DNA of 64,000 nucleotides from Thermococcus pacificus. Its GTDB lineage: Archaea > Methanobacteriota_B > Thermococci > Thermococcales > Thermococcaceae. A model generated the notes under the pieces. The model did not search any database. It had not been told where the DNA came from and saw nothing but the letters and a program-made list of their open reading frames with translations. The DNA is taken from the NCBI RefSeq assembly GCF_002214485.1, contig NZ_CP015102.1, forward strand, positions 124,001 through 188,000, given 5' to 3'. The position numbers were made by a program, and so were the translations under genes. Shown piece after piece: positions 8,168 to 23,030 of this stretch (within the stretch, counting starts at the first letter, position 1; each line of letters starts with the position of its first letter).

Positions 8168-9076
8168 ATGATAGCTGTCGCTCCGCTTATAGGTTTAACC
8201 CTGACGCTCATCCTGACCCCGTACCTGGCGAGAATGCTGAAGGAGAGGGGTATAATAGGGAAGGACATCCACAAGCCCGAAAAGCCCGAAGTGGCCGAGA
8301 TGGGGGGCCTCTCCATTCTGATTGGGGTTTCCGTGGCACTCCTGCCTTTCGCGGGCCAGGAGACTGCGAGGGCGCTCGCCGTTTTTCTGCTCTTCGGGCT
8401 CGTCGGGATAATTGACGATCTGGTGGCACTAAGACAGTCCCATAAGGTAGTCCTCTCGCTCCTCGTGGCGGTTCCTGTGGCTTTCCTTGATGTTTCACAG
8501 GAGGTTGACGTCTTCGGCTACTCGCTGAACCTCTGGTTTCTCTATCCCCTCTTTGCCCTCCTCTTCGTCGTTGGCTCAGCTAATCTCGTCAACCTCTTAG
8601 CCGGCTTCAACGGCCTTGAGATAGGCACCTCAGCAATAGCTCTGGGCTTCTTAGCGGCGATAACTGAGGGACCGACCAGAATGGTAGCGCTGACCGGGCT
8701 GGGTGCAGCCCTCGGCTTCCTTTGGTGGAACAAATACCCGGCGAGAGTCTTTCCGGGAGACACGGGGACGCTGAGCATGGGGGCGCTGATAGGCCTCGTG
8801 GGGATAATCGGGAAGGTAGAGGTCTACGCGGCGATACTCCTGATACCCCACTTCCTCGACTTCACGATAAAGGCCATTGGAGTGCGCTTTGGGGTGAGAA
8901 AGCACGGAAGAACCACTGTTCTTCCTGACGGAACGCTCCAGGCTCCACCATATCCGAGCTTCTTGGGACTTATAATGAGAAAAGTACGTGTGAACGAGCC
9001 GAAGCTCGTCGCAATAGTGTGGGGCGTAGAGTTCATTCTGGGGCTTCTCGTTCTTGCTCTTCGTCTATCACTTTGA
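8168..9076 (+). CDS. Polyprenyl-phosphate HexNAc-1-phosphate transferase (AglH/MraY-like)
   Basis: The 302-residue multi-pass membrane enzyme belongs to the MraY/WecA/Alg7 family (GT4-type phosphoglycosyltransferases), which load a sugar phosphate onto dolichyl phosphate as the first step of N-glycan assembly. The family signatures are visible: KPEKPEVAEMGGLSI, GLVGIIDDLVAL with the DD pair, SANLVNLLAGFNGLEIG, and FPGDTGTLSMGAL. About ten hydrophobic segments span the chain. It faces the HAD-GT2 gene across a 56-base divergent promoter, which supports a shared glycosylation role. Its 3' end overlaps the convergent cas6 gene by 44 bases. Confidence 0.88.
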   Translation: MIAVAPLIGLTLTLILTPYLARMLKERGIIGKDIHKPEKPEVAEMGGLSILIGVSVALLPFAGQETARALAVFLLFGLVGIIDDLVALRQSHKVVLSLLVAVPVAFLDVSQEVDVFGYSLNLWFLYPLFALLFVVGSANLVNLLAGFNGLEIGTSAIALGFLAAITEGPTRMVALTGLGAALGFLWWNKYPARVFPGDTGTLSMGALIGLVGIIGKVEVYAAILLIPHFLDFTIKAIGVRFGVRKHGRTTVLPDGTLQAPPYPSFLGLIMRKVRVNEPKLVAIVWGVEFILGLLVLALRLSL

Positions 9077-9782
9077 CCATTCCAAATCCATACCTCGTCT
9101 TTTCTCCAAAGCCGTTCTCGTAGCCAAAGCGGGCTATCTCCTCCGAGCCCGTGTAGCGGAATATCATGAGCGAGCCGCGGTAGTAGGTGTCCTTGACGAG
9201 TATCCTGACTGGCTTGAACTTGACGACGTCTATTGAAAAGTCCTTCTCTTCGGGCATAGAGCCCATTATAGCCGAGTAGCGCATGAGCATTACCTTGCGG
9301 AGCTTGTCAAAGAAGGCCTCCTCGCTCGGGTAGAGGTCCCAAATCTTCATCCTGTCGCCACTGAGCTTGACCGTTCGGACCATTATCGGGCTGAGAGTGG
9401 AGAAGAGGACATCTCTACCTATCTTGGGCTCCTTGAGAACCTTTACGTCCTCAGCTATGAACGTGGCTTCTCCGAGCTGGAGAACCGGGCTGTCGATGAA
9501 GCCCTCAACAACGGCCTTTATAAGCTCGTTCGAGGAGGAAGAGACGTAGAGAGAAACGTCGTCCGAGAGGACACGTATTCCCCTATCCGGGATTAACTCG
9601 CGCTTCCTAACCATTATGCGGGAAAAAGTGAAGTAATCGACGTGACTGACTTCAGCCTCCCTTGCGATCTCGGGAGAAACTATGGCAATCTTCTCTATGA
9701 GCTGGGCATAAACGTCATGATTATAGTTGAAAGGCAAAATCGTGCCCTCCTCCGCGGGCCTGAACTTTATCTCAACCCTCAT
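9033..9782 (-). CDS. cas6: Cas6-family CRISPR RNA endonuclease, orphan copy
   Basis: The 249-residue protein has the two ferredoxin-like halves of Cas6 and the glycine-rich C-terminal loop (GYENGFGEKTRYGFGMVKV), plus VLKEPKIGRDVLFSTLSPIMV in the middle, close to Pyrococcus furiosus Cas6. In that enzyme Tyr31, His46 and Lys52 are catalytic. Here a Glu lies at the Tyr position and the only nearby histidine (H47, in EVSHVDYFTFS) is just a few residues before FTFS, so the catalytic site is altered or shifted. ATG 9782 follows GGGGGTGGGTTAGA; a TATA-like TATAAAAGG lies just upstream. There is no CRISPR array or other cas gene in the window. Confidence 0.85.
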   Translation of the reverse strand: MRVEIKFRPAEEGTILPFNYNHDVYAQLIEKIAIVSPEIAREAEVSHVDYFTFSRIMVRKRELIPDRGIRVLSDDVSLYVSSSSNELIKAVVEGFIDSPVLQLGEATFIAEDVKVLKEPKIGRDVLFSTLSPIMVRTVKLSGDRMKIWDLYPSEEAFFDKLRKVMLMRYSAIMGSMPEEKDFSIDVVKFKPVRILVKDTYYRGSLMIFRYTGSEEIARFGYENGFGEKTRYGFGMVKVIDEEQEREAPE

Positions 9783-19081: not shown

Positions 19082-19666
19082 TCACTCCCCCGCGAGCTCT
19101 ATACCGCGCTCGAAGGCCCTGAAGTTGACCTCCCATAGCTTCTCGCGGAGTGTTTCCTTAATTCCCTCGTAGATGCTCTCCTTCCTAAGCGGAATCAAGC
19201 CTTTGCCAAAGGCGTAGCCGAGCATCAGAACACCGAGCGTTCTGGGGTTTATCTTGTCCGCTTCCTCCTGAAAGTTGGCCATGTGGACGGGGCAGATTTT
19301 TCCTATCGCTTCTTTTATCTCTTCTAGTTCAGGATAGCGCTCTTTACCGACGAGGGTTGTGGCAGTGTGTATTGGATAGGCGTTGATGACCGCTACGCTC
19401 TTCTTCGAGAGGAAGCGCGCGTTCCTCAAAGCCTCTGCTGGTTCGAGGGCGAGCATTAAATCGGCTTCCCCTTCCTCTATGAGGGGCGAATAAACCTCCT
19501 CACCAAAGCGGAGGTAGCTGAGGACGCTTCCGTAGCGCTGGCTCATCCCAAGGGTTTCGCCGATCCTTACGTTATAACCCTCGTGCATGGCCGCGTTGCC
19601 CACTATCCTCGATAGGGTCAAACCTCCCTGGCCGCCGACACCGGTTATTATGAGGTTGAACTCCAT
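19082..19666 (-). CDS. iorB: Indolepyruvate:ferredoxin oxidoreductase beta-type subunit
   Basis: The 194-residue protein belongs to the gamma domain family of 2-oxoacid:ferredoxin oxidoreductases, as IorB: FNLIITGVGGQGGLTLSRIVGNAA at the N-terminus, IGETLGMSQRYGSVLSYLRFG, and LALEPAEALRNARFL. With IorA it oxidises aryl pyruvates from aromatic amino acids to acyl-CoA while reducing ferredoxin. ATG 19666 is preceded by GGTGATGGAG; ATG 19672 is also possible. The usual iorA partner is not adjacent here, so it either pairs with a distant iorA or serves another oxidoreductase. Confidence 0.88.
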   Translation of the reverse strand: MEFNLIITGVGGQGGLTLSRIVGNAAMHEGYNVRIGETLGMSQRYGSVLSYLRFGEEVYSPLIEEGEADLMLALEPAEALRNARFLSKKSVAVINAYPIHTATTLVGKERYPELEEIKEAIGKICPVHMANFQEEADKINPRTLGVLMLGYAFGKGLIPLRKESIYEGIKETLREKLWEVNFRAFERGIELAGE

Positions 19667-19749
19667 CTCCATCACCGCATATTGTTGGAACTGGGCAATA
19701 AAAACCTAAGCCCGGGAAAATATTTAAACTCCGGAACCAACTCAGTAAC

Positions 19750-20441
19750 ATGTCCTTCGAGAAGTACTATGAGGCGTTCAAGGCATAGCATACAGTGACA
19801 TTTGCTCGGACGAGTACAGGAAGAGGATCGAGACACTCGAACCCCTTCTGATGAAGCACATGCCCTCCAGGGGAAAGGCCCTAGACCTTGACTGCGGGGC
19901 CGGCGGCTTCTCGTTTCTCCTTGAGGATCTCGGCTTTCAGGTCGTGGGATTGGACTCAAGCGAGGCTATGCTCGAGAGAGCCCGGGAGTTCGCCAGGGAC
20001 AAACGCTCGAAAGTCGAGTTCGTCAAGGGGGACGCAAGGGAGCTTCCCTTTGAGGACAACAGCTTCGACTACGTGCTCTTCATAGACAGTCTCGTTCACT
20101 TCAAGCCGCAGGAACTGAACCAGGTCTTCAAAGAGATCGCACGGGTTTTAAAGCCCGGTGGGAGGTTTATACTCCAGTTCACTGACCTCAGGGAACTCCT
20201 CCCGGTCCTGATTAACGGAACCGTCGTTGGGGCCGAGTACTGGATCAGCAGGGTTTTAACGGACGAAGAGGAGAAGACGGCGGTAATAGAATTCCAGAGC
20301 GAGAAGGAGAGCTTCAGGGTGCGCTTCAACGTCTGGGGGAAGACGGCGGTTGAGCTTCTCGCAAAGCTCTACTTCAGGCAGATCCACAGCGAGAACCTCA
20401 ACGAGCATACCTATTTCCAGGTCTACGTGCCGAAAAAATGA
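19750..20441 (+). pseudogene. SAM-dependent methyltransferase gene broken by a 5-base tandem duplication
   Basis: The gene opens at ATG 19750 (MSFEKYYEAFKA) and hits a TAG at 19786-19788. The stop is made by the sequence GCATAGCATA: GCATA at 19783-19787 is repeated at 19788-19792. Removing one copy restores one frame from 19750 to 20441, about 228 residues, reading on as AYSDICSDEYRKRIETLEPLL. The rest is an intact class I methyltransferase: motif I ALDLDCGAGGFSFLL, acidic LDSSEAM, motif post I VKGDARELPFEDNSFDYVLF. Translation could restart at ATG 19851, but that lacks the N-terminal helix. The substrate is unknown. Confidence 0.8.
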
Positions 20442-20446
20442 ATAGA

Positions 20447-22027
20447 TCAGGCCTCCATGCGGAGGCGTCCTATAACAAATTCTCTCTTCAGGGAAGCGAG
20501 GAAAGGCGCAAGCCTCGGGCCGCGGTCCTTGCCGATGAAGACGTTGTAGAGAGCTTTGAACCACTTCTTGCTCGGGATTCCGCGCTTCTTGGCGGCGTCG
20601 AAGATAACGTTGTTGAGTTCATCGACGGTGAACCTCTCGTTCTTCTCGAGCCATTCTGCCACTTCGAGCATCGCCTCCCTGATTTCCGGCTCAAGCTCAA
20701 TCTCTGGTGGCCTTTCGAGCAGGCTGAATTTCACATCCTCGGGAGCGTACTTCTCGACCCAGTTTTTAGCTAAGCGAATGCGGAGCTTAATTCTCTCGAT
20801 GTCTTCCTTGCTAAGCTCCTCCGGAACGTGTCCCTGCTCCTGGAGGATTCTGATTATGCCCTCCTCGTCGAGGTGAGGCATCTGAACGAGCGTTACAAGG
20901 AAGCGGAAGGGTGCCTGAGCGGTCAGTTTCTCGGGAACCTTCGGCATGGAAAGCTCATATGTTCTCTTGAGTTCCTCTTCCTCTTCGGAGTTTTTAGCCT
21001 TCTCAAGGCCGAAGTAGATGCGCTCAACCTTGTCGAACTCGTCGTAGAGGTTGAGAAGACCTAAACCGAGGTCAATCTTAAGCTCCTTGTTCGGCCTCGC
21101 CTTCGCGTAGATGAAGCGGATTATTCCCGGCTCGAGAACCTCGTAGAGGTCACTGAGGAGGATAACGTTGCCCTTTGAGCCACTCATCTTGCCCTTCTGC
21201 CCCTTGATTCCAACGAACTCGTACATGAGGTCTATCGGGGCCTTCCAGCCGAAGACCTTCTCCACTATCTCCCTGCCGGTGTCGTAGGAGCCTCCAGCCG
21301 CCAAATGGTCCTTTCCTGCGGGCTCGAAATCAACTTTGAAGTGCGCCCACCTCATCGGCCAGTCAACGCGCCACCTAAGTTTAACGTTGCCCTCGCGGAT
21401 GTCGGTCTCGCCTTCCCTACCGCAGTGGGGGCACCTGTAGGAGACCTTCCACTCACCGTCCCAGCTTACGAAGTCAGCCTCTTTCCTGCAGTGAGGACAG
21501 TAGACCATAACCGGCTGCCAGCTATCCTCCAACGGGGGCTGCTTGGCTCTCTCGCGGTACTTGTCGAGGATGGCCTTTATCTCATCACGCTTTTGAAGGG
21601 CGAGCTTCACCTCCTCCGCGTACTCGCCGCTCTTGTACAGCTCATAGGCGTGGAGGAAGTCAGCCTCGATGCCGAGCCTGGAGATCTCTTCCTCAAAGAG
21701 GGCCATGAAGTGCTCGGCGTAGCTGTCGTGGCATCCCCAGGGATCCGGAACCTCGCGGACTGGCTTTGTGAGGTGTTCCTTCCACTCCGCTGGAACGTTC
21801 TTCGGGACCTTCCTGAAGCGGTCGTAGTCATCCCACATGTGGATGTGGCGAACCTTCTTGCCCCTGTCCCTGAGGGCGTGGCCGACTATGTAAGCGGTAA
21901 AGAACTCCCTAAAATTGCCTATGTGAACGTAACCGCTCGGAGTAATGCCACTCTCGACGACATACTCCTCCTTGTCGCCCCTTTCCCGGATTATCCTCTC
22001 TGCCATATAGTCTGCCCAGTGAACCAT
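20447..22027 (-). CDS. lysS: Lysyl-tRNA synthetase, class I
   Basis: The 526-residue enzyme is the archaeal class I LysRS, which charges tRNA-Lys. It shows the HIGH-equivalent [17 protein letters not shown], zinc-type pairs [10 protein letters not shown] and [17 protein letters not shown] as the KMSKS loop, and a helical anticodon-binding C-terminus. I chose ATG 22027 ([13 protein letters not shown]), which has GGTGGTGAGA in front; in-frame starts further upstream exist at 22078 and beyond but lack a ribosome site. It is convergent with the broken methyltransferase gene and divergent from an uncharacterised gene. Confidence 0.95.
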
Positions 22028-22157
22028 TCTCACCACCGCGCTTAGCTCTGTCCAGGTCCTTTTAAGCTTAAGCTCGGCCATTGGTAACGATTCGTGGAGG
22101 GAAAATTTTATAAGCACAGATGGTAAAAACTACTTCAGAAAGTAAGGAGGCATCCCT

Positions 22158-23030
22158 ATGGAGGTTGAACTAGAGAGGATGCAAACCTTCTTTCCGGCGT
22201 CGCTCGAAATACAGGAAGAGCTTCTGAAGGCAGGCTTTAAGGTCCCCTACGACAAGGAAACGGGGAGGAAAACGCCAGTTCCGGTCGTGGTGAGCTCGAG
22301 GGAAGAGAGAAAGCTAAGAAGGAACAGACTGCTAAAGGCGAAGGACTTTAAGAGCGATGGAAAGTTTGCTCTGGTGCCCGGAGAGAGGACAATTATGGAG
22401 ATGGAGCTTACAGAGAAGGGATTCCTGATACTGAGGCCGAAGCCCCTCGAATACCATCTTGAAGAGATGGGATTCGTCTCGGTCCCGCCGAGGATATGGG
22501 GGACGTGGGCGAGCTTCTCGATACCGTTCTCGTTCTACGAAACGCTGACAGACTTTTTGAGCGAGTTCAGAAGGGAGGAGACCAACGGCCTCTACCTCGC
22601 CTCCCGCGGGGCAGGGAGGAGGATAGAGGTCTACGCCTACAAGGGGAGGACCAGAAAAGATCTTGGAATTCCCGTCTTCGGCTACGCCCTCGGCCTGCAC
22701 GGCCTTACACTTGCGAACGAATACCTCCGCGAGAAAGCTGAGGAGAACGGCGTTCCGGAGGAGAGGCTCCGCTACCTCAAGCTGGGTCTCAGAAAGAAGA
22801 AGGAGACCAAAGCGGGTCTGAAGGTTGGAGTAGTTTGGGAGAACGGGAAGCCGAGCGAGATAACGCTGAAGCTCTCAACTACAGAGCCGAGGGTTAAGAT
22901 CCAGGGGCTTTATGGGGAGCTCATAGGGAAGTCGCGCGGAGAACTGACGAGAACCGACGACTGGTATGTTGTAGTCCATGCGGAGGACTTTGCGGGTGCA
23001 CTCCACAAGGTGATGACGGCTTTCGGGTAA
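22158..23030 (+). CDS. Conserved-looking protein of unknown function
   Basis: I do not recognise this 290-residue soluble protein. It begins MEVELERMQTFFPASLEIQEELLKAG with GGAGGCATCCCT before the ATG, and has a basic stretch (REERKLRRNRLLKAKDFKSDGK), a mixed beta region (GFVSVPPRIWGTWASFSIPFSFYE), and a later region FGYALGLHGLTLANEYLREKAEENG. There are no transmembrane segments or cysteines that suggest a metal site. Normal codon use and a clear ribosome site support a real gene. It is divergent from lysS and precedes a membrane kinase-like gene by 46 bases. Confidence 0.7.
   Translation: MEVELERMQTFFPASLEIQEELLKAGFKVPYDKETGRKTPVPVVVSSREERKLRRNRLLKAKDFKSDGKFALVPGERTIMEMELTEKGFLILRPKPLEYHLEEMGFVSVPPRIWGTWASFSIPFSFYETLTDFLSEFRREETNGLYLASRGAGRRIEVYAYKGRTRKDLGIPVFGYALGLHGLTLANEYLREKAEENGVPEERLRYLKLGLRKKKETKAGLKVGVVWENGKPSEITLKLSTTEPRVKIQGLYGELIGKSRGELTRTDDWYVVVHAEDFAGALHKVMTAFG

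Follow-up and report, generated by a model that had tools for sequence, protein, structure and literature searches.

Results

The methyltransferase locus and its broken reading frame

The locus lies in a 64-kb stretch of the Thermococcus pacificus genome, bases 124001-188000 of its contig (hereafter the window, meaning the whole stretch of DNA that was analysed), between two uninterrupted genes on the minus strand. One is iorB (19082..19675), which encodes the beta subunit of indolepyruvate oxidoreductase (NCBIfam NF004915 above its cut-off; Pfam POR), and the other is lysS (20447..22117), which encodes a class I lysyl-tRNA synthetase (Pfam tRNA-synt_1f, 1.7e-140). Upstream of lysS, at 22158-23030, there is also an uninterrupted ORF of 290 aa that has no Pfam or NCBIfam match. 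Between iorB and lysS, the plus strand carries two pieces of a methyltransferase gene. The first is a leftover 5' reading frame at 19750..19788, consisting of the ATG at 19750-19752 and 11 further sense codons (12 codons in all) followed by a TAG at 19786-19788; the N-terminus that it encodes fits M[STG]F[EV][EK]YY, the start motif by which the ORFs of the orthologues were located and which all 28 of them share (see below). The second is an ORF at 19851..20441 (196 codons), assigned by its Pfam match and its similarity to PDB 1ve3 to the class I SAM methyltransferases of the PH0226 type, whose frame differs from that of the ATG at 19750. The methyltransferase frame is free of stops from 19773, has its first ATG at 19851 and ends at 20441.

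At positions 19783-19792 of the plus strand lies GCATAGCATA, a tandem duplication GCATA-GCATA that amounts to a 5-nt insertion relative to the orthologues. It occurs once in the window, where 0.04 occurrences would be expected by chance according to dinucleotide shuffles. The window contains 45 perfect doubled 5-mers, and a doubling by itself would be no signal; it is the comparison with relatives that makes this one a finding. The earlier note had claimed that the duplication breaks a methyltransferase gene, which is borne out by the TAG and by the intact frame of the orthologues. Readthrough of the TAG was rejected as a rescue, since reading on past it leads into a frame other than that of the methyltransferase and would not by itself give back the protein.

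Judged from its sequence, the encoded protein is a class I SAM methyltransferase of the PH0226 type. The product of 19851-20441 matches Pfam Methyltransf_11 with an E value of 1.6e-27 (96.4 bits against a cut-off of 21.2) as well as families related to it, and its nearest solved protein is PDB 1ve3 (E 3.6e-84, 284 bits), residues 1-195 of the query being aligned to residues 33-227 of the chain. Among the best 25 of 53 NCBIfam matches, no family reached its cut-off for the methyltransferase, and no restriction-modification DNA methyltransferase family was found among the Pfam and NCBIfam matches listed. PH0226, from Pyrococcus horikoshii, is a class I SAM-dependent methyltransferase listed as a hypothetical protein, and the likeness to it extends over the whole 196-residue piece. 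The two differ, however, in that PH0226 has its own first 32 residues in frame, whereas the duplication separates those of the window gene from the rest, and in the SAM loop, which reads LDLACG in 1ve3 and LDLDCG in the window. In the 28 orthologues the first 32 residues are all in the same frame as the rest of the protein, with 13 of these 32 columns invariant, compared with 71 of the 196 columns that follow. By descent, the window gene thus looks like a broken member of the PH0226 type rather than a working one.

Orthologues and presence or absence of the gene in the genus

We searched 61 genomes of the genus, that of the window included, and counted the gene as present where a match reached an E value of 2.1e-95 or better. 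The methyltransferase is present in 29 of these genomes; in the other 32 the best match is 1.4e-27 or weaker, and these matches were taken as members of other families. An intact, uninterrupted ORF of 228, 229 or 244 aa was found in all 28 orthologues from other species, some of which are almost identical to others, so that they do not count as 28 independent witnesses. Three further Thermococcus loci, probably the same records as G055, G038 and G043, were left out of the count. None of the 28 full-length orthologues carries the duplication, and the frame is open through the site in every one of them. The earlier note had suggested checking the orthologue for one unit, and a single copy of the stretch is indeed what the orthologues have; it was counted as a single GCATA unit in eight of the 28, and most spell the site otherwise. 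Furthermore, a pattern for the duplicated site matched only the window genome among 94 genomes of the family (one genome per species) and none of the 93 others; the pattern fixes the nearby codons, and other spellings would escape it.

The gene lysS adjoins the orthologue in 27 of the 28 loci, the exception (L095) being a locus that showed no neighbour match at all. From the 32 genomes without the methyltransferase we took 23 that were at least 90% complete, and lysS was found in 22 of them. In 17 of these 22 genomes, iorB is matched in full immediately past the 3' end of lysS; in three the locus ends before the whole of iorB is reached, and in two iorB was not matched, and no trace of a methyltransferase was found at an E value of 0.05 in any of the 22 loci. 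As 29 of the 61 genomes have the gene, and 17 of the 22 examined without it have iorB directly beside lysS, its absence is tolerated and the gene is dispensable in the genus. It is an accessory gene, the loss or late gain of which is common. Across the genus, the slot between iorB and lysS (window 19672-20447; loci L167-L188) is a site of presence or absence. The window genome holds no close paralogue of the methyltransferase, the next best match being 34% identical, and on this ground functional replacement by a paralogue was ruled out.

The start of the gene

In all 28 orthologues the start codon is the one that corresponds to the ATG at 19750. The case allowed for in the earlier note, in which the orthologues would all start at the ATG at 19851, is thereby excluded, and 19851 was rejected as the start of the gene. 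A TATA-like box, TATTTAA, lies at 19721..19727 on the plus strand, 29 nt before this ATG, and TATTTAA or TATATAA begins 29-31 nt before the start codon in all 28 orthologues as well as in the window, which argues that 19750 is the true start. In T. onnurineus, the centre of the TATA box lies ~27 nt upstream of the transcription start, and 117 genes have been identified as leaderless, their messages being without the GGDGRD motif (PMC5316973). The spacing between box and ATG in the window, which matches the position of the TATA box in T. onnurineus, suggests a leaderless message, and the mRNA would then probably begin at or next to the ATG at 19750. A scan for promoters of the sigma-70 type was set aside, as such promoters do not apply to archaea.

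Substitutions and selection

Apart from the lesion, the frame of the window gene is open, and it is 92% identical to that of its nearest orthologue. Parsimony places 17 synonymous and five nonsynonymous changes on the branch leading to the window gene, and 15 synonymous and 11 nonsynonymous changes on the sister branch. A codon model of 13 sequences gave an omega of 0.100 on the window branch, versus about 0.044 elsewhere; on the window branch neutrality was not rejected (2dlnL 2.71), nor was the background rate (2dlnL 1.12), while neutrality was rejected on the sister branch (2dlnL 25.4). A run with five sequences agrees with that of 13, and neither dates the lesion. Of the readings offered in the earlier note, that of a recent lesion fits best, but the codon test does not fix its age.

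Three replacements in the window gene fall in conserved columns. V42A, in a SAM-binding motif, departs from a column that is V in 28/28 orthologues, and A46D, in the SAM loop, from one that is A or G in 28/28, so that the small residue (A or G) which the family has before the CG.GG of the loop is replaced by D at column 46; E118K departs from a column that is E in 26/28. V42A and A46D lie close together in the SAM-loop stretch (window 19878-19892), beside the frameshift. The window gene has no unusual number of departures from near-invariant columns: two, against two in its sister and up to 13 elsewhere. V42A and A46D fit a gene that is no longer needed, and it could be that the gene had lost its use before the frameshift. 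The lesion itself may thus have arisen very recently, or the gene may have fallen out of use a little before it.

Lesions elsewhere in the genome

A sample of 424,000 bases of the genome was compared with the nearest relative, and 191,062 of these bases could be aligned. Over the aligned bases, neither genome shows, besides the GCATA duplication, an exact tandem insertion of at least 4 nt whose length is not a multiple of three. In the scans for split genes, the window was set against 200 kb from the nearest relative (G060), and 424 kb were set against 547 kb. Judged from the printed stretches, the flags that they raised mostly lay upstream of true starts or concerned fused neighbours, rRNA or antisense frames. 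The split-gene scan by itself missed the GCATA lesion, as the piece of 12 codons is too short, and it is a weak test near the ends of genes. In the 424-kb sample one clear further split gene was found, a presumed alpha-amylase-like gene, so called from its sequence, with two frame changes relative to the nearest relative. It lies outside the window (L137, about 8301-9450; G000:C1 356301-357450), and one of the changes is at a 1-nt gap. Either decay of another gene or another error in the sequence could account for it.

Discussion

The best explanation of these observations is that the window carries a recent loss-of-function (null) allele of a dispensable methyltransferase gene, to which we assign a probability of roughly 0.73; that the lesion is real we put at about three in four. 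A single misalignment during DNA synthesis would have doubled the GCATA at codon 12. Ribosomes would then start at the ATG at 19750, read 12 codons and stop at the TAG at 19786, and little or no enzyme would be made, since what follows in the gene is read in a different frame. In Sulfolobus, also a hyperthermophilic archaeon, tandem duplications have been described among spontaneous mutations (PMC7785828). With a frame disrupted here and intact in the orthologues, the gene shows one of the features of a pseudogene in the sense of a null allele by frameshift. It resembles the known frameshift pseudogenes of accessory genes in having one short indel, a largely intact frame and intact orthologues in relatives, and differs from them in the nature of the indel, here an exact tandem duplication of 5 nt and not a change in a homopolymer. 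A literature search on pseudogenes and frameshifts in laboratory strains of Thermococcus turned up no paper that was, by its title, on Thermococcus.

The alternative to be taken most seriously is that the second unit is an error of sequencing or assembly, and that the strain itself has one unit and an intact gene. The absence of the duplication from every orthologue would be expected in this case, as would the mostly intact look of selection on the rest of the gene, and the two frame changes in the alpha-amylase-like gene, whether from decay or error, also lend it some weight. On the other hand, the usual error concerns a homopolymer and not the exact doubling of 5 nt, no second event of this kind was found in the aligned 191 kb, and the genome is a single contig of 1,785,673 bases that is 99.98% complete. 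Moreover, the replacements V42A and A46D likewise suggest that the gene is not needed. We judge such an error unlikely, and the duplication is probably a feature of the cells themselves rather than of the sequence file alone.

It is quite improbable that translation restarts at the ATG at 19851 and yields a shortened working methyltransferase, as the earlier note had proposed to examine. The 196-residue piece does retain the SAM-binding core, and its best model is predicted to fold (mean pLDDT 87). However, the five models of this piece range from 87 to 43, compared with 92 to 88 for those of the whole orthologue L084, in whose best model (mean pLDDT 92) the N-terminal stretch forms two helices (3-9 and 19-35). 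Both predicted helices would be lost together with the 32 residues that all 28 orthologues retain, and no ribosome site of the GGDGRD type is present in the 20 nt before 19851.

Less probable still is that the two-unit allele is a polymorphism of living populations, retained because it can at times be of use to switch off this methyltransferase, and accompanied by rare one-unit revertants. A reversible slippage switch between one and two units (phase variation), which the earlier note had also entertained, finds no support and seems even more remote. The mod genes of Bacteria are slipped-strand phase-variable methyltransferase genes, and the window gene is like them in that its reading frame depends on a repeat near the beginning of the gene; it is unlike them in having two units only and in showing no variation. 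While the site could in principle gain or lose a unit, two 5-nt units do not form a tract long enough for frequent slippage, the open state is found in every orthologue (as a single GCATA unit in the eight already mentioned), and the site pattern is confined to the window genome among the 94 of the family. Programmed -1 frameshifting before the TAG, which by frame arithmetic would join both frames and give a full-length enzyme with two extra residues, is the least probable of these readings and was rejected, as the site reads CAAGGCA, without an X-XXY-YYZ slippery run, and no orthologue needs such a shift. A further conceivable source of the duplication is the excision of a mobile element, which could leave a target duplication of 5 nt behind.

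We thus regard the window gene as an accessory methyltransferase gene with a frameshift allele of an ordinary kind. For annotation, its start should be set at 19750, and the gene should be marked as frameshifted instead of being recorded as a 196-aa protein from 19851. Elsewhere in the genus the locus is either intact (28 genomes) or without a trace of the gene (22 examined), and that of the window has a single frame lesion; it may therefore be a case in which the loss of an accessory archaeal gene is caught while under way.
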